64,000 nucleotides of DNA, from positions 2,121,453 to 2,185,452 of the forward strand of contig NADL03000478.1 in the NCBI GenBank assembly GCA_002205965.3. The letters run 5' to 3'. Each line of letters begins with the position of its first letter. Position 1 is the first letter of the stretch. Below, in pieces: positions 4,679 through 56,100 of this stretch. The DNA comes from Kappaphycus alvarezii. Lineage: Eukaryota; Rhodophyta; Florideophyceae; Gigartinales; Solieriaceae. The notes beneath the pieces are model-generated. The model was given only the letters and a program-made list of their open reading frames with translations. It did not search any database and had not been told where the DNA came from. The position numbers and the translations under genes were made by a program.

Positions 4679-4930
4679 GCATCTCGTCCTACGGGAATAC
4701 CGCTCCAAGGAAGCCGAGAGCGAGTGGTTGGGAGCTGAAATTCGGCCGGCGAGACGGGTTGTCAGATGGTGGGCCAAGGCGCCTGGAGAGCTTACGCTCA
4801 AGGTCCTGGACCTTGTTGCGGAACGCTCGCGTGGCGGCGCCTGCGGCGGCTTGCGTTGCTTTCGTGACAGAGGCCTGCTTGAACGGCGAAACAATAGTAA
4901 CGTCACAGGCAATGGGCCTTTCCATGGGGC
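4679..4930 (-). mobile_element. Inverted fragment of a non-LTR retrotransposon C-terminal region
   Basis: The reverse strand encodes MERPIACDVTIVSPFKQASV and about 55 further residues. These are nearly identical to the segment encoded on the forward strand at about 5551-5770 in the adjacent element. The copies diverge after a shared NFS-QPLAL motif, so this is a roughly 200-bp inverted duplicate placed head to head with the longer copy. It contains only the part after the zinc-binding motif. It could arise from abnormal target-primed reverse transcription (twin priming) or from a second insertion. Confidence 0.75.
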
Positions 4931-6010
4931 AGTCTTTCTTTGTTGCCAGGCTTGCCCCCCCTTCGCCAATTTGCTCATTGTGTTCACGGTAGCTCTTTCC
5001 TCACCGACCTTGGCCCCTTGGACCCCACAGCTCTTGCTGACATCCCTGTCAGCCTGCAAACCCATCTCAATAGGGTACAGCAAGAGACTGCGGCAAAGGT
5101 GTACTGGGAGGGCAACCTCTGGAAGGATGTTCCCAGCCACACAGCTCACCGTCCCGAAGCCAGCCGTCGTCGGATACGCGGTCTAGCTTTTCGGTACTCC
5201 GAGGCTGCCGCCTTTCTACAAGCACATCCGACCAATGCGACCAAAGTCTCTGATGCTCATTGGAGCATCATGCTCCGTCGCCACCTCGGTCTTCCCGTAT
5301 ACACGGGCTCGATCCCGCCAAGGTGTCATCATTGCCAGCAGACGTCAGATCTGTATGGACACTATGGGGCTGACCTCTGCCCCTCGGGGTTTGGCCGCCT
5401 ACACCGGCATAACTCCATCCGTAACGCCCCCGCATATCATGTCTTGCGCGTTGCGCGTTTGGACTACAAGGTCGAGGTCCCTCTGTTCATTCCTGGATCC
5501 GATTTTAGGCCTGCTGACCTCGCACAACCCCAGGCACCTGCCATCGGCCCCATGGAAAGGCCCATTGCCTGTGACGTTACTATTGTTTCGCCGTTCAAGC
5601 AGGCCTCTGTCACGAAAGCAACGCAAGCCGACGCAGGCGCCGCCACTCGAGCGTTCCGCAACAAGGTCCAGGACCTTGAGCGTAAGCTCTCCATGCGCCT
5701 TGACCCACCATCTGACAACCCGTCTCGCCGGCCGAATTTCAGCTTCCAACCACTCGCTCTCGACTCCCGTGGGGCGGCGTCCCCAGCCACTGCTCTGTTT
5801 CTGGAAGCGTTCATTCCGCGGATTGCGACCAGATATCACACCCCTGCTGATGCCACTTTTCGCTCGCGAATCTATCAGCGCCTCAGCTGTGTTCTGTGGT
5901 CCTCGGTGGCTATGGCCATCATTTCCCGCGTCCCACTGTACGTGAGCGATGTTGACCATCCAGTTCTTAATTCAATAGTCGATCAGTGAGTGTACACTCC
6001 AGAAACATCA
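4931..6010 (+). mobile_element. 5'-truncated non-LTR retrotransposon (3' end of ORF2)
   Basis: A single open frame (4940-5989, 349 codons) encodes the C-terminal part of a LINE-type polyprotein. It has a post-RT segment (PEASRRRIRGLAFRYSEAAA), a zinc-binding CHHCQQTSDLYGHYGADLC followed by GFGRLHRHNSIRNA, and then RPADL...ACDVTIVSP, which looks like a restriction-like endonuclease core. The RT domain is missing, so the copy is 5'-truncated as is usual for LINEs. It ends with an ATT-rich tail (TTTATTATTATTATA) about 30 bp past the stop. A shorter relative of its last 60 codons lies at 28020-28215 on the reverse strand. The open frame suggests a fairly young insertion. Confidence 0.8.
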
Positions 6011-21912: not shown

Positions 21913-22205
21913 TGTGAAAGAAACGGGCCCTGCGATGCTTTAAGGAGGTCGGCATCGAATGGAGCCTCGTTCAATAGCAAAGGCTCAGCGGAGATAAATG
22001 GATAGTTACTTGGGGGACAGTACCGTAGGGATGCTACTGTAGCTAAAGTGTACACGTATGACACGTTGTTATTGCGTAGTGAGAATTATAATGCCACTCG
22101 TTTCCATATTTGCAACTCGACGTCAGGAGCCCCTCTCGCTATCCGGGACGCCAACCGTAACAGGGACGAACGAAACGAGTCGGTGTTGGAATCGAAGATA
22201 ACATC

Positions 22206-22464
22206 TGAAACAACAGAGGAACATGGTCTTTACTCCATCTGAAAACCGATACCTCCAATCCTCTATTCATGCCATCTCCTGCATCCATTCAAGCCTTAAA
22301 TGCTGCAATGACCTATCACGTCACGCCCCTTCATCCGTTCAAGTACTGTCGACAGTGACATTAGAAACAGATAAATTCACAATCATCTGGATGTGGGGCG
22401 TCCGAACCCAGTGGCTGCAACTTGCTAGCATTAGACGAGGTCAATGGTCACTAAACCTGTTTCA
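22206..22464 (-). repeat. Left (3') LTR, 259 bp
   Basis: The 259-bp repeat starts TGAAACAACAGAGG and ends CACTAAACCTGTTTCA. It is identical to the right copy apart from G/C, T/C and G/A differences at about 22320, 22422 and 22446. It is preceded by target duplication ACATC. Relative to element polarity it is the 3' LTR; the adjoining interior has no clean polypurine tract, only a mildly purine-rich GATGTGAGGTG on the reverse strand. Confidence 0.93.
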
Positions 22465-22636
22465 CCATAGGCACCTCACATCAATTGACGTCCGCGTCAA
22501 TTCATTCTCACACCAAAAAAAGGCACAGTCTCATTTCTACTCGAGGGCATCACATTCCCACATCCTGTCGAGACCGAGTACAAATCCAAAACGTCGTTAA
22601 CATATCCTTGTTCGTTACTACACCACCGGGGAGCGC

Positions 22637-24604
22637 TCAACGCAGGCCTCCTGCAATCTGTTTCTCCAATTCACTAAGGAGTACCTGCGTTCGATCAATG
22701 CGATCCAACAGCTCTCCAATTGAAGACATCTCAGAGACGTTCACCACCCTCAGAATCACTCGCGCACCCAAAAGGTTTAACGCGGCTGTCGGGTCGCGTA
22801 ACGTTGGCTCTGTGTTACCATTGGTTAGGACGGTAAGCACAGGGTTGCTGTGCCTTACAATGCTTTGGATGTCACCAGAAGAATTGTTCGCCACTAATAC
22901 CCTTTCCAGATTATCAAGGAATCTTCTCGCTCCGTCTTCGTCAACTTTCACTGTTTTGACGCCCTTCCCAATGGACTTAGCGTTGTACCAAGTTGTGCAA
23001 CCTGTGGCAAAATCAATAAACGGAAAGTTGCCCGCAGTTGGGCGATACACTCGAAGCTCGTTCCGGTCCATTGAAGCGATTCTTTGGTACGCAGTGTCAT
23101 GATTACCCTCTGAAACGTACTGAACTTCTGCTTTTCTCCCTTTAGTCTCACAAAGCCAGTCAAAAGCAAAGTCCTCAAAGTTTTCCGTCCTCAATGCAAT
23201 AATGCTTTTCTCCAGACGGTCACGAAGAACAAGAGTCGCAATGGGTGTCAGCTGGAATGTGGGACGCTGCATCCTTCGTTCTTTCCATGTGTGGTGGTTC
23301 ACTGTCTTTGGATTCAAAAGTAAAAGTCTTGACGAAGCGGAAGGAGGATGCTTCGCGAGGAATGTTGAGTACTTTCCACGCAACGCCTTGTACAGATCGA
23401 AATCAGAAACTTTTTCTCCCGCCTCAGCAGTGCCTTGTACGTGCTCACCGACTGCATCTAAAAACAGTCCCGAGTCAAATGCAAGACGAGGAATAGCTCC
23501 AACGAGCTCAATTCTTTTCTCGACTTCGCTCATCTTCTGTTCCATCGTATTTAGTTCACCGATCTGCCATGGGTGCGGAGACTTCTCATCGTCCCACAAA
23601 ACTCTCGTCATAGCTAGGACCTCTTCTTCCGTAGGCATCGACGTCACTAGTAGAGTGCCGTCTTTTTCCCAGTTCCGAAAATGCTTTTCCGCATTGTTTG
23701 AAACAAACTTGAGAACTCGGCACTCACCCTTTGACGAATACGACCCTTCTTCCGGAGGATCAATGATCGCTACCACGCGAGTATCATCTTGAAATCTTGT
23801 CTGGTCAAAGTAAAACGACTTTGTTCTCCAGACGCGGTAGTTGCCGTTTTCTCTCGGCAAAAACAGTAGCATTTTCCCTGACTTGTACCCAACGTACAAC
23901 ACAGCACTCCTCCGGTAAAGAAGAGCCTGCATGGCGTACATCATAGATCCTCGAGTTTTTCCAATACCTGGCTGACCGGTAACTGCAACCCTAAAGCGAT
24001 TCTGCAATGCGTCCAGGGCATGACGCACGCAACTCCGACTTTCTTCACGAGTGATGGTAGCTGTCTTACCTTCTAGGCCATCAGTATCAAGTGCTTGTAC
24101 ACCGTATTGCACGTAAACACCATGGCCAAGATGTTCTACACGAGCGCCTTTTTTCCTTTGAGCGACGTATACTTGACTTTTTGAGGCCAAAACGTGTTGA
24201 AGTTCTTCATGTAGTTCTACGAGCTCTTGTGCAAGCGAATCAAGTGTCTCATCCCTTTTCCAACGCACATCATCATCAATCCTCTCCCCTTGTACAAACT
24301 CTCGAGCAACCTTGACGCCGGCGCCTTCGAAAGATGGTAGACGCCCGTTCTGTCGCGCATCCGGCTTCCCACGGGGCGGTTCGGTACAAGACACCGTAAT
24401 CGCGCGCTTGATTGGTAACAAGCAAAACCGCGAAAAGGGCCGTTTGTCAATACGGAGAAGATTTGAACGAAAGGATTTACCAACAGGCACGCCTGAAGAA
24501 GCTGATAAACACGCGGGCTGAGCACTTATGGTGGTGAACAGACGAAAGTGGCAAGAAAAAGCGTTGTACGAATGACGGAAGGCGGTAGGCATCGCCCGGG
24601 ACAT
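22637..24604 (-). CDS. RHS/Crinkler-like P-loop ATPase, cargo of the LTR element
   Basis: An uninterrupted 655-codon ORF. After a roughly 100-residue basic N-terminus it has a helical segment (LAQELVELHEELQHVLASKS), then a P-loop domain. The Walker A VTGQPGIGKTRG is at about residues 208-219, YRRSAVLYVGYKSGKMLLFL follows, and a Walker B-like VVAIIDPPEEG is at about 277-287. This arrangement (GQPGIGKT, then a strand, then IIDPP) is that of the trypanosome retrotransposon-hot-spot (RHS) and oomycete/fungal Crinkler-RHS proteins. The C-terminal third contains LRTENFEDFAFDWLCETKGR, then NFPFIDFATG and YNAK about ten residues later. That could be the D...(E/Q)xK core of a PD-(D/E)XK nuclease; this last point is inference. 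Clean reading while several host genes show shifts suggests recent selection or recent insertion. No signal peptide is evident. Confidence 0.8.
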   Translation of the reverse strand: MSRAMPTAFRHSYNAFSCHFRLFTTISAQPACLSASSGVPVGKSFRSNLLRIDKRPFSRFCLLPIKRAITVSCTEPPRGKPDARQNGRLPSFEGAGVKVAREFVQGERIDDDVRWKRDETLDSLAQELVELHEELQHVLASKSQVYVAQRKKGARVEHLGHGVYVQYGVQALDTDGLEGKTATITREESRSCVRHALDALQNRFRVAVTGQPGIGKTRGSMMYAMQALLYRRSAVLYVGYKSGKMLLFLPRENGNYRVWRTKSFYFDQTRFQDDTRVVAIIDPPEEGSYSSKGECRVLKFVSNNAEKHFRNWEKDGTLLVTSMPTEEEVLAMTRVLWDDEKSPHPWQIGELNTMEQKMSEVEKRIELVGAIPRLAFDSGLFLDAVGEHVQGTAEAGEKVSDFDLYKALRGKYSTFLAKHPPSASSRLLLLNPKTVNHHTWKERRMQRPTFQLTPIATLVLRDRLEKSIIALRTENFEDFAFDWLCETKGRKAEVQYVSEGNHDTAYQRIASMDRNELRVYRPTAGNFPFIDFATGCTTWYNAKSIGKGVKTVKVDEDGARRFLDNLERVLVANNSSGDIQSIVRHSNPVLTVLTNGNTEPTLRDPTAALNLLGARVILRVVNVSEMSSIGELLDRIDRTQVLLSELEKQIAGGLR

Positions 24605-24803
24605 GGTGACGCTTTGGTGAGTTCGGCAGTGAGGGCCGACCTCGCGGCTTATCCCGTATCATCGGAAGGCGTATGGATACCTTTCTTGTAATATCTTGCA
24701 CCAAGTCCTTGGTTTTTTTTTTCTTTTTTTTTGTTGTGCACAACGTATGCCTCTTCCAACGGGCACTCGATTTGTTGACATCAAGAAGTGCTGGAGAAGC
24801 TCT

Positions 24804-25226
24804 CTAGAGCCTATCGAAGACCCATTCCCAGCCGGTCACAGGCTCATTCCAATTCAAGTTCAAATGGCATCCGGCCAAATTAAAGTTCCCGCCATTGTTC
24901 TGAGCAGCCCAGCCACTGCTAATCGGCAGTTCATCACTTGCTGGGTTCATGCGACTCTGTATTGTCCCGACAGAAAACACACAGCGTTTAACCGTAGCTT
25001 CCACGTTCTCCGAGCCTCTTGCCTGGAGCCGTGCTTTCCAACGTAACTCCCACGTCTTTGCAAACTTGAGCCTTTCGCTCAACGCTGGGCTTTTCAACGC
25101 AGCCTCCTCGTCTATTCCACGACCGAGCAGCCTGAGAAAAAGACCCAATACAAACGCCATCACAGACGCTGATGGGCAACCTAAACTGGCACTCCAGTTT
25201 CGGTAGACCATAACTTTTTTTTGCAT
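24804..25226 (-). CDS. Leader ORF of the LTR element, unknown function
   Basis: A 140-codon ORF starting about 95 bp after the 5' LTR. It begins MQKKVMVYRNWSASLGCPSA, has one hydrophobic stretch (VMAFVLGLFLRLLG), and continues with a charged helix (ERLKFAKTWELRWKARLQAR) and an Asn/Trp-rich end. I do not recognise it, and it has no zinc knuckle or capsid-like motif. It occupies the place where gag would lie. It may be a decayed gag, a captured exon, or chance. Confidence 0.3.
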   Translation of the reverse strand: MQKKVMVYRNWSASLGCPSASVMAFVLGLFLRLLGRGIDEEAALKSPALSERLKFAKTWELRWKARLQARGSENVEATVKRCVFSVGTIQSRMNPASDELPISSGWAAQNNGGNFNLAGCHLNLNWNEPVTGWEWVFDRL

Positions 25227-25308
25227 ACTACGCGTCCCATACCACGCAGCATGGACCGGTCCTGGACTTTTCCTCCTACCGACAACCTCTCATTCGCCGA
25301 GACTTGTT

Positions 25309-25320
25309 GCGATGCTACCA
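25309..25320 (-). promoter_or_regulatory. Putative tRNA primer-binding site
   Basis: On the reverse strand, TGGTAGCATCGC begins one base after the 5' LTR. TGG is the complement of the CCA end that every tRNA carries, and TGGTAGCA resembles the primer sites used with initiator Met tRNAs ending in TGCTACCA. The matching host tRNA was not available to check. Confidence 0.7.
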
Positions 25321-25321
25321 G

Positions 25322-25580
25322 TGAAACAACAGAGGAACATGGTCTTTACTCCATCTGAAAACCGATACCTCCAATCCTCTATTCATGCCATCTCCTGCAT
25401 CCATTCAAGCCTTAAATGCTGCAATGACCTATCACCTCACGCCCCTTCATCCGTTCAAGTACTGTCGACAGTGACATTAGAAACAGATAAATTCACAATC
25501 ATCTGGATGTGGGGCGTCCGAACCCAGTGGCTGCAACCTGCTAGCATTAGACGAGGTCAATAGTCACTAAACCTGTTTCA
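25322..25580 (-). repeat. Right (5') LTR, 259 bp
   Basis: Partner of the left repeat, with the same TGAAAC...GTTTCA ends, followed by target duplication ACATC at 25581-25585. Given the polarity set by the primer site and the ORF strand, this is the 5' LTR and presumably holds the promoter for the cargo gene. Confidence 0.93.
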
Positions 25581-26052
25581 ACATCGACCTTGTCATTTTT
25601 CTGAATCGTTGTGCTTGTAATGCAGAAAAGCTAAAAGAATTTATGCAAGTATCAAACGCCCCGCTGTGGCACAACAATTGTCCCGACACTAGCCCATCTG
25701 TGTTCACGTCCGCTTCAATAAAAATGCTCAAAGAGAGAGAGTCAAGTGGCAGATATATAAATTCCTAGAGGGAACGCAGTCTTCCCGAATCCCGAATAGT
25801 CGCGCCCTCTGTCACGCACTATCCTTGGTAATACCAATTCTTTCGATTCCACTTAGCAGAACAAAGGTTTCCCTTCGCTTCGAAAAGACACACATTTCGC
25901 TTCGTATATCGCAGCCGCATTGTTCCAAGCCGAGCCCCTCTGCATATAAATGCCCTCCTCACACAATGCAAATCTCGTCGTGCCCTTCTGTATTCACGCA
26001 ATTTCAATCCTCCCCCATTTTGTACAACTACTCAGCAAGACGTTTTGCACAA

Positions 26053-28215: not shown

Positions 28216-30600
28216 CTTTTCCCGACTCGAAAAAGAGACTGCATTACATGTACGATGCATTATCCCCTTAGCTAACCAAAAATATTTTACTTGTTTGGCA
28301 GGGGGGTGAGATCCTTTAAGAAAAAGGCCCGTGCAGAGTTGCTTCGACACTAAGCCGTCCGGAACGGCCTAACCCCAGGCCGCTTTACTTAGGTACGAGC
28401 TCAGCCTCAGATAAGGCTGAGATCCCCCTATCGAGCCCAGGTCGCTTGGGAAACATAAAACGAGGCCGGACATTAGGGCAGCCGGCGCAATCAGCACCAC
28501 TGATTATTTTGATGTTACTTCTGTGAACCCATTAACACCTTACGTCAAGATGAGAAATTTAACCCCTTAATGAGCTTGAATGCAGCCCAGGTTGACAAGC
28601 TTTGAAAATACCAGGGGTTCATAACCAAGGCTTCCTGGCTGCCTGTTCCTATCTCCACGCTCGGAGGGTGCACCCCGATGAGTTTTCCACGATCAGGAAG
28701 GTGGCACGATTGGTAGCCAGCCGAGCCCTGGACCAATACTCTGTTGAGATACGATGTTATTTAGGACAACTCGTCCGCTGTGAAGTGCATGTTATTGGTA
28801 CGGAATTTCACGGTGTCTAATAATTGGATGGAAACCGATCTGAAATCGGAGTATGAGTAGGCATTTGCCTACATTGTCCTGAAGGGGACTTGATCCTGAG
28901 GGGTACCTTGCCTAGGCCCCTGGTGGTTTTCTCCTTTAACTACTACTTGACTTGCTTGGGGTTTGTCAGAGTGGGTTTGTGTCTATTCGAAGTAGACGCT
29001 AGGGTTTTCTATTACCAACATGGCAAGGGTAATCTAAGTCTTTGAAACTTGGTTGGGTTCAAGAGTTTAAATGCATGCATACTCTAGAGTTGTGAAGTAA
29101 AAAAGAGAGGAGTGACCGGACGATCAAAAAATCCGAACCCACTACGAACATACTCAAGGGTGAGGGCTATTCTCTGTCAACCGCACGCCGCGTTGATTGT
29201 CACTTCCAAAGCGGTTTGATTGTTGACGGGGCTACCAGCTATTTTTTTAGTTGGTAGAAATGATACGTTATTTGTACATCCTGAATTATTGTTTGAACGC
29301 AAATTCATAGGACTCCCAGAGAATCTGGAGAATAGAACCTTGGGGGATGTCTTTGCATACATGACGCAGTCAACGACGCCCCTAACAACTTTTAATATGG
29401 TTGCCGTAGACGGGTCATCGAAATGTATGGCTTCTTAGTGTACCGAAGCAGCCTGACGTTCCACAATTGGAATGGGTTATTGAGATTAACGAGATACATT
29501 TGTTGTGAACTGAGGCTGCCAATCATTTTGAATAGTCCATGAACGTGATTTTCGCCACAGTGTAGCGATATTTTCGCTGACCGGGCAGTGTCGCCAACGA
29601 CATTCTTGTTACGGGTGCCAATGACTATTGCCAGCGTTGTGAAGACCCATGACGAGCTCTTCTCCTGAATGTTCTTCTCCAAACCTTTGCACCACTCGCA
29701 ATAAACCCAGCCCACTAACCCCTGCATGTGGCCCTTTTATTTTTATTTCAAATACTTATATCGCATTGCTCCCGCATAATTATCTTCGTCTCATTTTCAC
29801 CGTTACTGCTAATCCAATCCCGTCTTCTGCATGGACGCCGCAGTCGTGGCATCGGCCTCTGCTACGATAGAGTGGCATGCGGTTACGCCGCTGCTTCGTT
29901 TGCAAATGCGCGTGCCTGGAACTTGGGAACTGTTTTCATGAGATTTACCGGTGCTATCATCGGCTCACTCTTTTTTCTGGGTGTGTCTGTTTAGCAGAGC
30001 CACGTCAATTTTTAAATAAAGGTCTCAAGTTCTCTTCTTTACATGGTTCCACAGATTCTCAAGTGGATCCAGTGATGAATGCATCATCCCTTTTGTTGGT
30101 AGATAACTGTTCCTTACAGCAAATACATGTTTCCTCTACCCGAGAGCCATCCTTGATTTGTTCCTTTGAAACCACTGGCCCTACCTTTTCTTTCAGAAAC
30201 GAAATAATAAAAACACTTTTTCCTTATGAATCTAAACTTACTGTCCAACTCTATTTTCTGTTTTCTGTTTGAAGATTTGGTTCTCCTTTTTCGAGGAGAA
30301 ACATTTCCACTGGTGATCTTCTTCTTAATCCAAATGCAATTCCGATATTTTATGAAACAGTTTTTTTTACGTTGCTTCGGATTTATGCATATTCAAAGCC
30401 AAATCGTCGCTTCAACTTTTTATTTCTAGGACGGAAGTGAAAATTATCAGATATATGTCCTATGTCAAGATCCATAGCATCAATGTTAAATCATCATCCT
30501 TATTGTAAACCATTGCATCGGCTCACCTGCAAAAACGCTTAGTCTTCCATGAAACGGAGCCACTTACGCCTCATTTAACATCAAGGAATCAACAAGAGCC
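28216..30600. other. No recognised gene; short palindromes
   Basis: Open stretches up to about 130 codons occur on both strands (for example 28602-28820, 29877-30272) but none matches a family. Several short palindromes are present (CCTCAGATAAGGCTGAG, AGGCATTTGCCT near 28860). Composition falls in GC to the right. This is probably old repeat-derived sequence. Confidence 0.35.
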
Positions 30601-33600
30601 TACTTTAGAATCAGAAGTTTATTCTTGATGACTAGTGTGACAACAGACTACAACGAATACCTCAGGATGATGGTACCAGGAACGCGTTCGGGAGAGGGCT
30701 CGTCATCAATTTAGGGAGGAGACCGAGGGGGCTGAGGTAGATATCGAAGGATCCGAAGATGAAAGAGCCATGGGAGAAACTGGTTGACTACAGTGTAGGA
30801 GTTGCTGCGAGGAACAGAGAGGAGATTGAGGGGATGATCGTAATGTCGGAAATTTTGGTTAGGAATAGGGAGGAATTTGAGAATCGTGAGGAAGGATTTG
30901 AAGATATAGATATTTTTGAAGAAGATATTCTACGATGCTGTGTCGTTAGAGTGAATTTTTGGGGGTTGTATTGGAGGGATGGATATTTTGCAGGAATTTT
31001 TTGGTTATGGCCTCGAAGATGGAAGGTTTGAGGAGTAGATCGACATTTTTATTCTGAGAGGGTCTATTTTTAATATTTCTTGCCTATAAGATTCCCTTGA
31101 ATTCATTTTATTGTATTTAGTTCGTGTTTTTTAGACTTAAAGGTTAGTAGAAAGGTGTATATGAGCTGAATAAATCTATATCTTTAGGAGAGGTCAAGGA
31201 ATTCGGTAGGAAACTTTAAGTGAAGATCTAAATAGTTTCGAAGCTGAAAGTTAGCTTATGACCTAAAAGTTGTTTCTTTACGTTAGGCACTGAGCATAGG
31301 TGGTATATGCTGCTTCTTCTTGTCTAATTTGTATCACCTTAAACCCATTTTCTTATCTATCTCTTTATGTACCTACAAAGATACTACGGTAACACATTTG
31401 TCACTTGCAACACCTCAGTCTTCGGAAAGCTAGTTCTGAGAATCTAATCCTTGCGGGTTTATTCAAAGCATCCGTGATAATATTTGGAATATATTTTTCA
31501 TAGACTCTTTCAAGTAATGGACAAAGCGATTACATCTTATCAGGAAATGCTCCAGCGTCATGAGTGGCGTTGTACCGCTCCATTTCATTTTACTCCGCAA
31601 TTGAAGAACATAACAAAAGATACAGAGATTCGAATGCTTCTGCTCTAGTTATTTTGTGAATAAAGTCATTAATACCATTGGCAGGCTCGCTCTGTGGTAC
31701 GGTTTGTACTGTGATTGGCATGGTGGTGCTTACTATGAAGGTGTAGACGTGTATGCGCGGGAGTCTGTTTCAAACTCCAGAATTATAGCATTAAGTGCAG
31801 TTTGCCGAGCAAAAAATATTATTCATTGTATTTTACTTTCGTGCTGTACGCAGTAGTTTCGTGATTTTGCACTGGGCTGGCTCATTTCTGTTGATTTGAG
31901 ACATAGTAATTGTTATTTTGTATTTGAAATTCGGAACGGACTCGTTGCCCGCGAAAATTTGAAAATACTTCCGTTGGCATTAATTGCACCGCATTTCACT
32001 CTAAGATTACAATTTTACCTTCCAATTGATGGAATAAAATAAACTTTTTGGTGCTTTATAAACTGCGGTCAGCGGAAATCGCGATATTTTGCGTAGTTCA
32101 TCTACAAGATACAATATAATTTGAAGCTTTCATACTTAAGGCGCACTTTCAATCAACAAGCGGGCCTCTTCTAAAGGTTAGGTAATCAAGCAATGACTTT
32201 GTATCTGAATATTTATTTGGAGATATCATCTGCTGGTGAATTTCATATTTGATGACAAGAGACTGAAAAGAGGGCATTTGGTCTTAAAACACCGAATACG
32301 TTCGGAACAAACTCAGTTAAATATGCAAAAGATACATTAACAAGTTCATATTGGATAATCTCCCAGAATATGCCTCTCCCTCATTCCACACAAGAAATGC
32401 GAAGCTGTAAGTCAATACGCCTGCGACGCTCGTTACGATACCTCTACCCCACACAGTGGCGCTTTAAGATAATGTTATCACTAACTGCACACAATAGTTT
32501 TTGAAATCGCCTGTGGTACCAGGCGTACTCAGATTGCAGTGGATGCACTTGAATATCAATAATTAGAGAACAAAACGCAGAAATGAAGAACTGAATCATA
32601 CTGTTACTCTTTCTAGTGCCATTTTCTACCGATAATTGACCATAAATTGCAGAATCTGCCGGAAAAGTCGCCCCTACAATCCTTTACGATGTAAAAATTA
32701 CTATTTGGTGATTTTCTCTCTTTGAAAGTGCCCCATTCCTTACCTTTCTCTTAGGCATCATAGACTTTGCAATATACGAGGAACCTAATTACCTTTGACC
32801 ATAAAAACTCTTCCTTGGCTTAGAAAAGTCCTACAAAATGGCACAACATCAGAAATGATCTTTTTGTCATCGGTTTTCTGCAGCAAAGACCTATGAAATT
32901 GTTTTTAGACCGAAAAATATCAAGGTCAGCCATATATCTAGAATACTGCTTTGCGCGGTTGAGTTCACTTCCGTTTGGCAGGACGCTAAATTCTACTCTG
33001 AAACCGTACAGCTTGTGCGTACCTCTAAAGTAAATTTTCTGCTCTTGCATATTTCCTGAATGTATATATGCTTTTAAAACGTCCATACTGTTTGGTCCGA
33101 AAATTATGAGACTTGATTCCGTCAGGAAGAAATTACCCGAAGAGAAGACCGATTGAACGCGCTTGAAGAAAGCGTCGCTAAGAGGTTAGCAAAGAAGATA
33201 AATAAATTTGGTAGTCATTTTTTGGAACGCAGGGCATTTTGAACTGAGTACCTTCGCGGCTATCTGCAGCTGTTCCCAGTATTTCAGGGTAACCAACATA
33301 GTGAAAAGCATATATTTTCCGCCCTGTTTAAAATTTTGGCCGTTTGTATTGTTCTAGCAGTTTACGGTGTCCGAGACGTCATTAAATACCGCGTGAAACT
33401 CTGTAGCATCATATTCGGTCATATCTTGTAAAGAAATTGCTCCCTCGTCTGCGTAGAAACGTCGAGGAGGCAATAAGAGAGCTTCTCTTCGTCAGTGCCG
33501 TAATACTTTGCGTTATAGAATCCTTCAAACTGCTCGCCCCGCTTAATGACAGTGTCTGCGAGTAATTTATAAGCTTAGCGAGGTTTTGCTAGATAAGAAA

Positions 33601-36600
33601 ATGAAAAGAGTACTTTCATGGAAGTTTTAGGGATTTTTAGTGCGCTATCGTTCGTAGTAGTGCGCTTTATTTAGTAGCTGCGGTTTAAGTTTATTGGAGG
33701 CAGTACAAAGACTGTATAGAAACCGCCCTTTTTGATGAGAGGCGGTCTTAGTCAAAGAAGTAGTCGTTTACTAAATGAGGGCGGTATGGTTCCTGGTTTA
33801 TGCTCACTGCAAATAAAAAACTGAAAACTGACCTAGTTGTAAGTGTCCCACGTAGTAATTATTAAAACGAATTTTTGTATTTTATTGTTATTGTTATTTT
33901 TAAAATTTTCGAGGTTTATTACTGTATGACTGAATTGATTTCAAAACTATTCCTGTTTACCAGGAACTTATCAGATATTTCGGAGTATACAAAAATTCTT
34001 TAGAGGAATATAATACGAAACTTCGCGCTCCTGTAAGAAAAATACTATTCTACAGTACAGTGCAGAGTAGGGACAGCACCGCGTTTTGTACAGCAGCTTA
34101 AAATCGATGAACAATCATTGGTGAGCTTAGGTTGTACAATTATGATTTAGAAAGGCCCATTGAAATGATGGAACTGAATATATATCTACAAAAACATGTA
34201 TATCGTTGTTTTGAGTCGAACAGTTAGGAAAATCTTTTAATATCTAGTAAAGGTTCAGAATATATGGGTCCAAACTAGAATAAATCTTCCCGCTGTTATT
34301 ATAATAACGTAGATTTCAAATAACGGGTAAACTGTCTCCACCATTAATTAAGATAATTTGGCAACTGCTTAAAAGTAGGGGCGATGTAATGCAAAAGTGC
34401 GTAGAGATATGTTTTTGACCATCTTAAACTGTTTGATTCATTAATTAATTGTTTCTTGTCTCTTCCAAATCCTTTGAAACAAATCGGCTGGAAATAAACT
34501 TGCTGTTACGTATACAAAGTCTATCAGGATAGCTTACATCATTTATATCCTTTTATAGAGACAGGATTTTAAACGCTCTCCAATATCCTAATACCATTGT
34601 AAGCTCCACATGGACATGGCCCACGAATCCATACATTGTACCCAAAAGATATATATAAACCTATCCCATAACCTTGTCCTAAATGTCAAAAGTTTGCGAG
34701 TAATGTAATAGATCAAACGTCAATGGCTCGTTGATTGGCATACCTATTCCATCCAAAGAAATTTAGCAATGATCTATACATGAGTTTTAGGAGATTCTTA
34801 TCAGTGCAATCCAGGTAACTGTTAATTAACACACAAATTGAAATATAAAATTCGTTGAAAAATGAACATAGATAAGATATGAGTGGGATGCAGTTCAAGA
34901 AACGCCAAGTCTATTGTAGTGGATCTTTTCATCTAAAATTACAAAAATTCATCTAAAGTGTTCTCTTTCATGATTGTAAAGGAAAAGTAGCGCCTATTAT
35001 ATATGTTTTCGAACAACTCTAGGAGATTTTACGGCTTAAATTAAATTCCACCTTTTAAAACAAAACAAAAGTGTGACACTAAAATTTCTACTGTAACGGC
35101 GACTTTTTATATCATAGACGTATGTTCAGACATATCTACCATCTTTTTTACAAGAGAGGCGAAAAAATAAGCGGGAGTCTAAATAATTATGAAATTGTCT
35201 TCTTATAAACTTATACATGGATAAGAACATAAAATTCTTACCGATGCTACTCTGAATTAAATTAAATATACTACGTAATCTGGAGCGAATTCGTTAATAG
35301 TCCTGCATCTTGATTTTTTTGAATATTAATTCTATAAAAAAGACAGTGTTATTAAAAGTTGAATGTTGAAATTAGCTGAGCAATATTGCCTATTTGATTG
35401 GAACACCAAGCGGCCAAAAAGGAGTTCCTTCCTTCATTAATATTTTATAAAGTACTACAGTTGCAATTAAGGTTAATTTCTAAACCAATTTTCTTAGATT
35501 GATGATTTTATGTTAAAAATACTTATCTGCACAGATTAAATTATATTCTAAGTAAGTAAAGTACTTTTCAACGAGTAATAAATCATATTGAACACAGTTT
35601 CAACAGATTGTTGCGCGAAGCTGCATGGAAAAGGAAAATTTAATTAATCTACCTACGCAACAAGATTGTAACATTACTAGAAGCAGTCTCGCAAAGTGTT
35701 GGGTTTTGCATTATTTAATATTACAAAAATATTTTGTAATGGTACGCGTAACCTTTTTTAATTTATTCTTTTTAATATTCAAAACATAAGAGTTTTTCTG
35801 TCATGAAATTATGAATTCAGAACTCAAAGAGGCTTTTATTTAATACCTTTTTCGACCTAAAATTTAGGCAATGGAAAGATGAATGTGCATCAAATTAAAG
35901 CACTATAACGCAGTGTTTGAATTTATACGTTCTCAGAAAAGATTTGAAGCACGAAATATTCTTCTGTCCCTGATAGAAAGTAATTTTATAAGTAAATTTG
36001 CTACGAAATGTTCATATCTGAACGCAAAAAGGGTAATTATGTATTTTATTTATTTTTACTCCATTTAAATGGTAATATTAAGCATGGCGTGTAATGTTGA
36101 CCTTGGAGTTACGCAAAAAAGTACGCAAAAATGGATTGAAATTTAACAGTGTTACTAAAAGAACAAAAATGTACGGTCTATGAAGATTTTGTGGTGTACG
36201 AAGGATTATGGATTACTCAGTTGGAGAAATATCCTCATTTGGCTTTTGGTATGATTGAACTGGCGCGCAGACCGAGAAGTGATATTTTTTGACCAGTCTT
36301 CGATAATTTCCGGCGAACTTGTAGGTAGGGAAATGATTGCATCAAAATCTAGTGGAGCAAAATTACACTCGACATGCGGAAACGGAGCCGTGTCACCGGA
36401 CAAGAGAAGCTCTTCATGCACCATCCAGGCATGGAACTGCTGGCTCATGAGTTAAATTTAAAAAGTGGGTCCTACAACGTATAGTGCTGGCAGTATCCTT
36501 AAATATTTGCATGAAAATCAGTTTAAAATAAAATTGAATCATCTTCAGGCCCCGAATCATGGCATTGAATCAATCGAATGTACAATTTTTTTGAACCAAA

Positions 36601-39185
36601 CATTTTCAAAACTTTCTTTCGCATCGACGACACGGCAATCTAGAAATAACTGTAAACAAACAATTTACCCAGAAACGTTAAGTGTAGCACCTTCATTATT
36701 TTATAAAGCAATTTTGTTGAAGGATTTGTGGTCACTGATTTTTGAACCCTGAAAAAGTATTTTGGAACCTTTTTTAATTGAAAAGTGTGATAGATTCAAC
36801 TGAGTGAATCAGAAGAAAAAAGAAGTGTCATTGAGAAAATTGCATATCTGTCAGCCAAAAAACAGCGCCGATCCTTTTTGGAAAATAAAATCAAAACGAA
36901 AAGCTTGTAGAATCAAAAATTTGGAACCAGGACCCACAACCCTGAATTTTCCATAGAATTTTAAGCCAAATCAAATTAAAAGGAAAATAAAAAGCAATAA
37001 TCATTGGTTTAAGACTACCAGATACTCTTTTCGAAGGAACTGAGTAAATAATCGTAGAAAGATGCATTTCATACATTTTATTATTGATGTGAGGCTTAAC
37101 CGTGCCAAATTTTTTAATTAATTTTGTTACAAGTTGTTACATTAGTGGAGCCCGGTATTTTGTAATACCAATGAGGCAGAGAGTTTCCACCTGAAATCTT
37201 TGAATCTAAATTATCGAAATGCCATCGAAATTATTTCGATGCGGCTTGGAATGCTCAAACAATTTTTCGATGGCTTCTTCATCAAAATTTACTGTATTAA
37301 AATTTGCTTGTTGATCTACATCTTATGAGGGCGGAGTCAAGTCAATCTGTTACTTCCTCTACATATTCAAAACGATTAATTACTCTATTTGGAGTAATCT
37401 TTTTGTTTCGTTACAAGATCTGACTTCAACTCTACGTAAAAAATAAAAGAGGAGTGATTTAAGCACATCTTCTCTGAGCATTGTATTTTTTGGAAGAGAT
37501 GGGAATCTGAGTATATGTAGAAAACATTTACTGCTTGTGTCGAGAAACGTTTTCGCAAGTGGTCATATATAGTGATTATTTGTCTCTGGAAATTGATTTA
37601 GTAAGTGTTATCTCCATTATATTTCCGATATTTAAGAATTAATCAACTAATGTACTTCAGATTCTTTGGTCCAATCATCTCCGAAATCCTGCTCTTTCAC
37701 GCTGCTACGCCCATGCAGATGGAACTGATTTCCTTATTATCGGACCCCGCAAAGTGGCATATGTAGCGGAATAGCAGATACGAAGGTGTTATATTCGAGC
37801 CACAGGATTCTGTCTGGCAATTGGAAAAACGAACTACACAGAAAAAAATTAAAGAATATTCTCTGTCCCTCTCTTTCGTTAACCACTCTGATATGCAGTA
37901 GCACAGTTTTACGATGGCGAAGAGAAGTTGGTTTGGTAGAGCAGAGCATGATTACTTGGACATTCCAATACTACACTGAACTATACAGTACAGTAAGGGC
38001 ATTTATTTCTACTGCCTATTTCCATCGGCATTGGTACTGTATATCCACCCGAGTGGACCTGAGGGCGTTTATTCCGGTCCACTCGGCCCCCAACTTGGAC
38101 CTAGTGTTTCCGCAGGTGAAAGGCAGCTATTAACCCAAGTGTCGACTTTACTCATATCTAAGTTGGATCTCCAGTACTTTAATGACATTGATTTACTTTC
38201 GCCGCCATCGCAGATAAACCTAACCTAGCTAACTATTATTTATACGTAACCGAACACTAGTGCTCCAGAATAAACAGAAACCCTAGTGTTGACTCTGAAA
38301 TTGACTCTCAACTTCCGCCTTTGCCGCAACCTTACCGACGGCAACTTTGGCTATAGAAACGTTTATCCGCCCGCGTTCCCCTTCTATTTCCTTGCTCTCC
38401 ATCCAATATTATACTAAACATTTCAATGTCTATTTTTGATACTTACTAACACTTGCACGCCAAACTCCGCCGTTTATATCAAGTTTGACGTTGGTGACAA
38501 ACCCCTTATCTCTAAAGGAGATAATTAGCACTGCGGAACCCCCAATTATTTCTCCTTTTGTCCTATATTGCACCCCTGGTGTCCACGGTTCTTTGAACTC
38601 GATTATTCTCAGGGTTCTAGCATTCCGCGGAACCTTGCCCAGCGTTACAACCTCGATGATAATTAAACCGTCCAGTTGTCCAGGAAACCGCCCCTGCTCT
38701 ACGATCTTAACTTCTCCTCGCTGTCTGCGAGCTTCGCTACTGCACCACAGGGTGCTGAAAGAGTAATAGGGACAGCGAACACGCTTTGAGTCTTGGTCTG
38801 TGTATGTTAGCTTTTTCATTGTCTGAGGGGATTCCGTACCTAGACGAGAGCAACTGGGCACTGCGCATTGCACTAAAGTGGCCCACTCGTGTGATTTTAC
38901 AGCACCATCATTTACTTTAGTTGGCAGTCAGCAAGAATTCTCTCACTGTATGGAAAAATATCTGCTGTTAGGATTGGGCAGACTTGTCCAAGATTAAATC
39001 AAAGATATATAACAAAAATCATCTCTGCCAGTGGAAGCACAGTACGAGTGCCAATCGCACTACGCAATATTCTCTTGTGCTGGCATAAGCTGCATTGTTC
39101 TGGCCTATGGTATTAAATTCCGGCGAGCATTGAAAGTAGAGATATTGCACGTTTGATAAGATTATTTTTCTGCAAAAGTCACACT
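30601..39185. other. AT-rich gene desert with transposase relics
   Basis: About 8.5 kb with clearly lower GC than either side and no ORF above 150 codons. It contains one readable transposase relic (32820-33086), short homopolymers and scattered GTACAG words (about 34052, 37985). No tRNA, rRNA or organellar protein-coding signature was noticed. An inverted GTGGGTCC pair near 36470 and 36930 could mark a small decayed element. Likely heterochromatic or decayed transposon DNA. Confidence 0.5.
32820..33086 (-). pseudogene. DDE transposase relic
   Basis: The reverse strand reads HKLYGFRVEFSVLPNGSELN and a few residues on SRYMADLDIFRSKNN. This matches the core of a DDE endonuclease family (the 'hK.yGfKvE.sVLPnG ... 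gS.sDldIFR' segment). Only about 85 codons are left and no flanking domain could be followed. Inactive. Confidence 0.55.
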
Positions 39186-54991: not shown

Positions 54992-56100
54992 GATTCTAAG
55001 TTGATATAAAATAGTGTGACATTTTGTTTTAAAAGAAAAAAAGATCAATGAGTTTTATATCTATAGCTCCCTACTGGTTGTACTTGCGTCATCTGACTTG
55101 CGAAGTTAGCTGCTGTCTATGGCGCACTGAATTACCCCTTTATGAGATGTCACCGTATTCTGTCTCATGTTCAAGTGGATGCCTATTGGCGAACTGAGAC
55201 AGCAGCTTGTTCACAACCAGTCGAGTCCCCGTTGGAATTTTCGGACTTCTTACAGAACCCCAGCGAGAATCTAACTCACGATCTCTGGGTCAGCAACCTA
55301 CGATTCGCATCATGGGCCACCATCCCAGTGATGGATGCGAGGAAGTGACTGGGAGTGTATAAAGTTGAAAGCTATTGCATCTTCAGTACGTCGGTCAGTC
55401 GAACACTACTGTAAGTAACTCCTTACAGTGCAACGTTTTTACTAATATTTATTGGGACAAAAAAAATTATTTGGCTACCACAGTACAGTACTTCCTTTTT
55501 TTTGTCCTCATATGAGGTGTGCATACCGAAGTTTAAGGGGCAATACCCATTATACTGCAAATGTTCCTCTTCTCTTTGGACTTTCGGTGCTTAGCTCGAA
55601 GTTCAAGGGGCAATACCCTCAGTAACTGCAAAAATTTAAACCCTGAGCTAAAAGGGAAAAGAAAAAAAGAAGAAAACAAAACAAAACAAAAGAAAGCAAA
55701 TGAAAGCAAAAGATAACAAAATAAAACAAAAGAAAGCAAAAGAAAGCAAAAGAAAGCAAAAGAAAGCAAAAGAAAGCAAAAGAAAGCAAAAGAAAGCAAA
55801 AGAAAACACAAACGAAAACAAAACGAAAACAAAAAAGAAAACAAACGAAAACAAGGAAAAAACAAGGAAAAAAAGAAATAAATAAATTTAGAAGCACTCA
55901 AATAGAGGTGCGAACCAAACAGAACGCCTTCCAGTGCCAAAAAAAGCACTATTACTACTAACGGCTCGAATACCGCCGGGCTCCCTGTGCCAGATATGAC
56001 AAGTGATCTGGTTGCGTAGCGAAAGCCATGTCAGCCATTGATTGGTCAAAACCTGCGTCAGGAAGCACCTCGATGCACCCGCGATGTTTTTATCGAAATC
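54992..56100. repeat. Intergenic with AAAGAAAGCA microsatellite
   Basis: A purine-rich tract covers about 55655-55880. Its core is about seven perfect units of the decamer AAAGAAAGCA (about 55729-55805), flanked by variants with AAAAC units. Repeated GGGGCAATACCC words lie near 55537 and 55607. No gene is seen; reverse-strand Phe-rich ORFs here are artefacts of the repeat. Confidence 0.75.

Follow-up and report, generated by a model that had tools for sequence, protein, structure and literature searches.

An LTR retrotransposon family of Kappaphycus alvarezii that carries an RHS/Crinkler-type ATPase gene and is probably copied in trans

How does a gene for an RHS/Crinkler-type ATPase come to lie as the only long sense gene between two long terminal repeats (LTRs), and by what means is it copied? 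The question is raised by an element in a 64-kb stretch of DNA of the red alga Kappaphycus alvarezii (the window), which belongs to a 336-Mb assembly of 884 contigs. Our answer is that this element very probably belongs to a non-autonomous family of LTR retrotransposons, present in many copies, that carries the ATPase gene and would be copied in trans. Read directly from the DNA are the LTR–gene–LTR structure, 5-bp duplications, solo LTRs, three LTR subfamilies that share one conserved gene, purifying selection on it between them and a primer match to a host tRNA-Met (C and L numbers below denote contigs and loci).

The element body (22206–25580) is bounded on either side by ACATC (Table 1). 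The two LTRs, each of 259 bp and with the ends TGAAAC...GTTTCA, differ by 3 mismatches without gaps (98.8% identity); alignment and reading of the flanks bear out the first-pass annotation of this DNA, which had described the pair in these terms. On the minus strand the 5′ end runs from the LTR (25322–25580) through a single C into TGGTAGCATCGCAACAAG, and the primer site, TGGTAGCATCGC, lies one base past the LTR, in the internal region rather than inside the LTR as first annotated. Besides the ATPase open reading frame (ORF) the internal sequence amounts to 889 bp and therefore leaves no room for gag and pol. No second sense ORF of at least 150 amino acids and no gag or pol was found between the LTRs (antisense ORFs were left unscanned), in agreement with what had been claimed before; the ATPase ORF is overlapped by a pair of antisense ORFs, 205 and 196 amino acids long.

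The ORF itself (24604–22637, minus strand) is, as first read, a clean frame of 655 residues with GQPGIGKT (residues 210–217) and IIDPP, the latter as part of IIDPPE. Against the Pfam family RHSP (PF07999) the window protein, P0001, scores 25.3 bits (cut-off 25; E 1.2e-5), with nSTAND3 as a weak additional match, and P0002 matches PF07999 at E 1.2e-8. A first search returned 10 homologs of the window protein, and a second recovered these and added 6, for 16 in all. Six of 11 aligned proteins pass the PF07999 gathering cut-off, the best at 35.2 bits, and four have no PF07999 match at E 0.01. The curated cut-off of TIGR01631 (89.75) is reached by none of six proteins, five of which match it weakly (22.5 bits for P0001; 39.9 bits, E 1.5e-10, for P0002). 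The RHS label given to the protein at first pass stands by PF07999 and not by TIGR01631. In the C-terminal domain, D531 is invariant in two homolog alignments and K543 nearly invariant in one; we regard D531...N541-A-K543 as a candidate nuclease active site. Fold prediction gave the C-terminus, for which a PD-(D/E)XK fold had been suggested, a weak likeness to nucleases of that type. The window protein is RHSP-like, and we read it as an ATPase of the RHS/Crinkler type whose C-terminus may be a nuclease. Its first 70 or so residues (24395–24604, minus strand) are basic, rich in Ser/Thr and, as judged by eye, similar to an organelle presequence.

The window copy is not a singleton: LTR–gene–LTR copies with target-site duplications of their own lie on several contigs. 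A query of the same genome with the LTR, for which the best 40 of 133 candidate matches were scored, returned the two LTRs of the window and 38 matches outside it, with pairs spaced 2.8 to 3.1 kb on several contigs. Dispersed LTR–gene–LTR copies were read on C455, C446, C669 (with an internal deletion and a diverged 5′ part) and C500 in addition to the window, and solo LTRs on C64, C678, C695 and C21. In a scripted flank test of nine loci (five LTR–gene–LTR copies, three solo LTRs and one array), 4–5 of 5 flanking bases were equal at all nine, with exact agreement at six, and no more than 3 of 5 agreed in any of 72 wrong pairings. Duplications at solo LTRs were found by script at L040, L041 (4 of 5 bases) and L044, and by eye at L045; the C21 solo LTR, the outer end of which is mutated, has an exact GAGAC duplication, and a copy on C665 an exact TAGGT duplication, both read by eye. 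With C21 and C665 added to the nine scripted loci, all 11 insertions whose ends can be read have target duplications (4–5 of 5 bases), 8 of them exact. Because the five intact LTR pairs differ by only 1 to 3 substitutions (with gaps of 7 positions at L031 and 1 position at L035), the insertions look recent.

The primer site ties the family to a host tRNA. Among loci L031–L052, the 12-mer TGGTAGCATCGC occurs at 25 5′ ends of RHS elements; one further occurrence follows a gypsy LTR and another, at L040, lies elsewhere. In the old C665 copy it is altered. A 17-mer around the site, CACTGGTAGCATCGCAA, occurs 38 times in the 336 Mb (reversed control, 0), and 31 of these sites fall within listed matches to the leader, the internal stretch that begins with the primer site (lists compared by eye). 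The tRNA gene was predicted from the primer site before it was located: it should start with AGCATCG and continue as NGGCGCAG, a continuation that we assumed from features of eukaryotic initiator tRNAs. This pattern has nine exact sites in the genome, all with T at N (control, 0). The one site that was read is called tRNA-Met (CAT) by ARAGORN, and we take it, from such features, to be the initiator; the gene starts with AGCATCGTGGCGCAG, and its 3′ end, ...CTCAGCGATGCTA followed by CCA, is complementary to TGGTAGCATCGC across 12 nucleotides. The tRNA-type nature of the site, proposed at first pass, is thereby upheld.

The gene is coupled to the element well beyond the window. A genome query with the ATPase gave 74 matching segments, with 68 of 433 candidates scored, and these matches form 51 clusters of RHS-like coding sequence on 30 contigs, a rough count because a single copy can yield two clusters, as on C27, and because different array contigs may represent the same locus. 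A leader or LTR lies upstream of at least 32 clusters, an LTR downstream of at least 22 and both at least 17 times; these are lower bounds, drawn from the best 40 of 133 LTR matches and 40 listed leaders. Within 2.5 kb of a cluster, none of the listed leaders has the opposite orientation.

Three LTR subfamilies carry the gene: type A of the window, type B of the arrays described below, whose LTRs are about 77% identical to type A, and that of C500, an element whose 271-bp LTRs differ by 2 mismatches and which has CACCC at both flanks. Over residues 87–648 the coding frame of C500 matches the window protein at 62% identity; upstream of that part it has an in-frame stop. When type A is compared with C500, identity stays at about 86% in the last 58 bp of the LTR, in the primer site and in some 235 bp of leader; the stretch ahead of the 3′ LTR is conserved too. 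This is as expected of sites recognised by a foreign reverse transcriptase (RT) and integrase, and the leader may be a packaging or recognition sequence. Relative to the window ORF, the ratio of nonsynonymous to synonymous divergence (dN/dS) is 0.22 for C500 (dS 1.25), 0.225 for C598 (dS 0.87) and 0.39 for a C312 array ORF that can be aligned from end to end; pieces of array copies with broken frames gave 0.27 to 0.56. Purifying selection on the gene is thus clear between subfamilies, over long times. With a dN/dS of about 0.22 between subfamilies, the gene is a long-term resident and not a passing capture.

Whether that selection acts for the element is the point at which the most serious alternative enters, namely that a host family of RHS-like genes was captured by LTRs and rides as passive cargo, with selection acting through a host function such as defence or genome conflict. 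Fourteen of the 51 clusters have neither LTR nor leader among the listed matches. One of them, L051 (C598:1276200–1280700), is an intact, 5′-truncated frame without a 5′ LTR, and relatives exist on other contigs and in Gracilariopsis chorda. However, the same gene lies in the same orientation and position in three subfamilies with widely diverged LTRs, and L051 still holds a type B 3′ LTR (96%), which gives it the look of an element in decay. As to why the gene is kept, a role in the host or a decayed full element is possible; that gene and LTRs have stayed together for so long favours an advantage to the element, and we consider passive capture possible, if unlikely. L051 is also, in its own right, a candidate domesticated copy.

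If the family is copied in trans, the enzymes must come from elsewhere. Trans-mobilization is proposed because RT and integrase are missing from the element whereas the genome is rich in integrases: all 150 scored matches to the integrase family PF00665, of 6,546 candidates, are above the cut-off. Of the seven CACTGGTAGCATCGCAA sites outside listed leaders, six are on C459, C479, C642 (two sites), C737 and C784; the seventh immediately follows the 5′ LTR of a Ty3/gypsy element that sits within the C665 copy (L049 8383 to L050 3890). This element is chromovirus-like, has LTRs 93% identical and lies in the orientation opposite to the RHS element; we identified its RT, integrase and chromodomain-like pieces by eye, without a profile. 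It shares the primer site of the RHS family, whereas its LTRs differ. A trans-mobilised element had been proposed from the window; the family is indeed non-autonomous and a gypsy element shares its primer site, but no RT-coding partner with the same LTRs was found among the loci read.

It is also conceivable, and in our view improbable, that a full element with gag, pol and the RHS gene exists among unread copies or orphan leaders, and that the window copy is its deletion derivative. Seven of the 40 listed leaders, on C721, C189, C36, C595, C484, C21 and C736, have no RHS match within 4 kb, and on C736 a leader (1318168) and an RHS-like match (1324700) lie 6.3 kb apart on one strand. But a comparable spacing of 10.8 kb on C665 is due to the nested gypsy element in opposite orientation, and on C721 the integrase match nearest to any orphan leader (among the 150 of 6,546 scored; read by eye) is separated from it by 9.8 kb and has the opposite orientation.

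Some copies form head-to-tail arrays, [LTR–gene]n–LTR, with units of about 3.1 kb (C312, C204, C523, C467, C588, C589 and C860). The C860 array lies between two copies of AAACG and its leftmost LTR is cut short; the corresponding LTR on C523, with the same flank, is complete. Since the array is enclosed by one duplication, a single insertion grew, probably via unequal LTR exchange. Flanks are 95–99% alike among C860, C312 and C63 and among C860, C204 and C523, and some of the array contigs could therefore represent a single locus in different versions. When array units were compared with the window copy in 75-bp bins, divergence was 0–8% in the leader and first 100 codons, 1–52% (mostly above 10%) over codons of about 100–375, and from about codon 375 to the end of the ORF either 0–4% or about 19–47%, with sharp breaks. 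This mosaic pattern fits gene conversion as well as template switches in the course of copying. The C860 array interrupts an ORF that by eye resembles a reverse transcriptase, at ...VDARNAFNS..., and the element therefore inserts into retroelement-like genes too; the array inside this RT-like ORF can be seen at L033 1285–2385 with the right flanks of L038 and L032. On C63, a 76-bp satellite-like tandem repeat (L042 2902–3545) adjoins a damaged RHS element.

The arrays invite two further explanations, each of which we hold to be extremely improbable. A tandem gene family with an LTR-like intergenic spacer, from which single units were moved by recombination, would account for the head-to-tail units, but is in our view refuted by the duplications that flank dispersed and solo copies (11 of 11 insertions), with the solo LTRs, the tRNA-matched primer site and the AAACG-enclosed array standing against it as well. 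Repeats or arrays made by the assembler would agree with the shared flanks of the array contigs and with the broken frames common in arrays, but the dispersed copies lie on different contigs with different flanks and the window ORF is intact.

Several observations weigh against a trans-copied family that is selected for its gene, in addition to the clusters without listed LTR or leader and the absence of a same-LTR partner among the loci read. Complementarity to the tRNA ends at 12 nucleotides, and exact CACTGGTAGCATCGCAA is missing from 9 of the 40 listed leaders. A classical polypurine tract was not seen at the 3′ LTR, where there is a conserved G-rich stretch instead; 22465–22498 is a plausible second-strand priming site. 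Frames are broken in many array copies, for which sequencing error is a possible source. Close copies have higher dN/dS (C455 0.57, C446 0.58, C669 0.76), on the basis of few differences, with 0.36 for part of C446; selection on single recent copies is accordingly weak or unproven, and such selection as there is could serve the host instead of the element.

We suggest that RNA would be transcribed from the 5′ LTR, copied by a reverse transcriptase and inserted by an integrase, both supplied by LTR elements of the host that code for RT; recognition would depend on the conserved LTR end, on the primer site and on the leader. Unequal LTR–LTR exchange would then turn some insertions into tandem arrays, and copies may exchange segments. 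Least firmly, we hypothesize that the gene is retained because its protein helps the element, most likely by cutting or remodelling nucleic acid, be it that of rival elements, of the insertion site or of copying intermediates.

Non-autonomous TRIM and LARD elements resemble this family in their LTRs, tRNA primer site, duplications, solo LTRs, lack of gag and pol and need for a helper. We know of no conserved protein gene in TRIM and LARD elements, whereas the present family keeps one ORF under purifying selection between three LTR subfamilies. Other LTR elements carry extra or captured ORFs, such as the aORFs of Retand and maize Bs1, and likewise hold a gene other than gag or pol within their LTRs; in the window element, by contrast, the RHS-type ATPase is the sole long sense gene. 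Trypanosome RHS genes (PF07999/TIGR01631) are similar in the P-loop ATPase domain, multi-copy, mosaic and tied to retroelements. They are targets of retroposon insertion, and the link of RHS/Crinkler proteins to retrotransposons is known mainly from genes invaded by elements, whereas the gene described here sits inside a mobile element.

Crinkler-RHS (CR) proteins of the NTPase plus restriction-endonuclease (REase) type, as summarised in PMC5289972, share the predicted order of an NTPase followed by a restriction-endonuclease-like domain. The window gene differs in being LTR-borne and in its presequence-like N-terminus, as seen by eye; no search for a Crinkler header was made. In literature listings that did not cover the main RHS-protein paper, we recognised no account of an LTR element with an RHS protein as its sole gene.

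Table 1. Positions in the window of the features of the LTR element
Feature	Position	Strand	Basis
Target-site duplication ACATC (left)	22201..22205	.	Flank comparison
3′ LTR relative to ORF sense, 259 bp	22206..22464	-	98.8% identical to other LTR
Conserved internal 3′ end (GACGCGGACGTCAATTG...CTATGG)	22465..22498	-	Window and L052 compared by eye; L051 too
655-codon ORF, RHS-type P-loop ATPase, putative nuclease C-terminus	22637..24604	-	Translation, profiles, homologs
Candidate active-site stretch D531...N541-A-K543, C-terminal domain	22976..23014	-	Conservation; assignment inferred
Mosaic part of ORF, about codons 100–375	23481..24305	-	Per-bin comparison with array copies
Walker A GQPGIGKT, residues 210–217	23954..23977	-	ORF translation
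Leader kept between LTR subfamilies (about 86% to C500)	25088..25320	-	Subfamily comparison
Primer binding site TGGTAGCATCGC	25309..25320	-	Perfect 12-nt complement of host tRNA-Met 3′ end
5′ LTR relative to ORF sense, 259 bp	25322..25580	-	Pair alignment
Target-site duplication ACATC (right)	25581..25585	.	Flank comparison

Elsewhere in the window, a 238-nucleotide inverted repeat (4693–4930 and 5547–5784; 95% complementary, 616 nucleotides apart) is overlapped by an ORF (4940–5989) without a Pfam match. Positions 30001–38000 are A+T-rich, with a G+C fraction of 0.31–0.38 compared with 0.42–0.57 elsewhere, and a purine-rich repeat with a 10-bp period and AAAAGAAAGC units occupies 55638–55892.

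An RHS gene that is the sole gene of a moving LTR element offers a concrete route for the spread and duplication of RHS genes. Selection keeps the gene in an element that does not, so far as is known, need it for copying by a helper, and it becomes testable whether the RHS protein sides with the host or with the element. More speculatively, and with considerable doubt, red-algal LTR elements may have specialised as parasites of retrotransposons, with an RHS/Crinkler ATPase-nuclease as their only gene and as a tool of conflict between elements, and RHS-type proteins elsewhere may descend from such element-borne genes.

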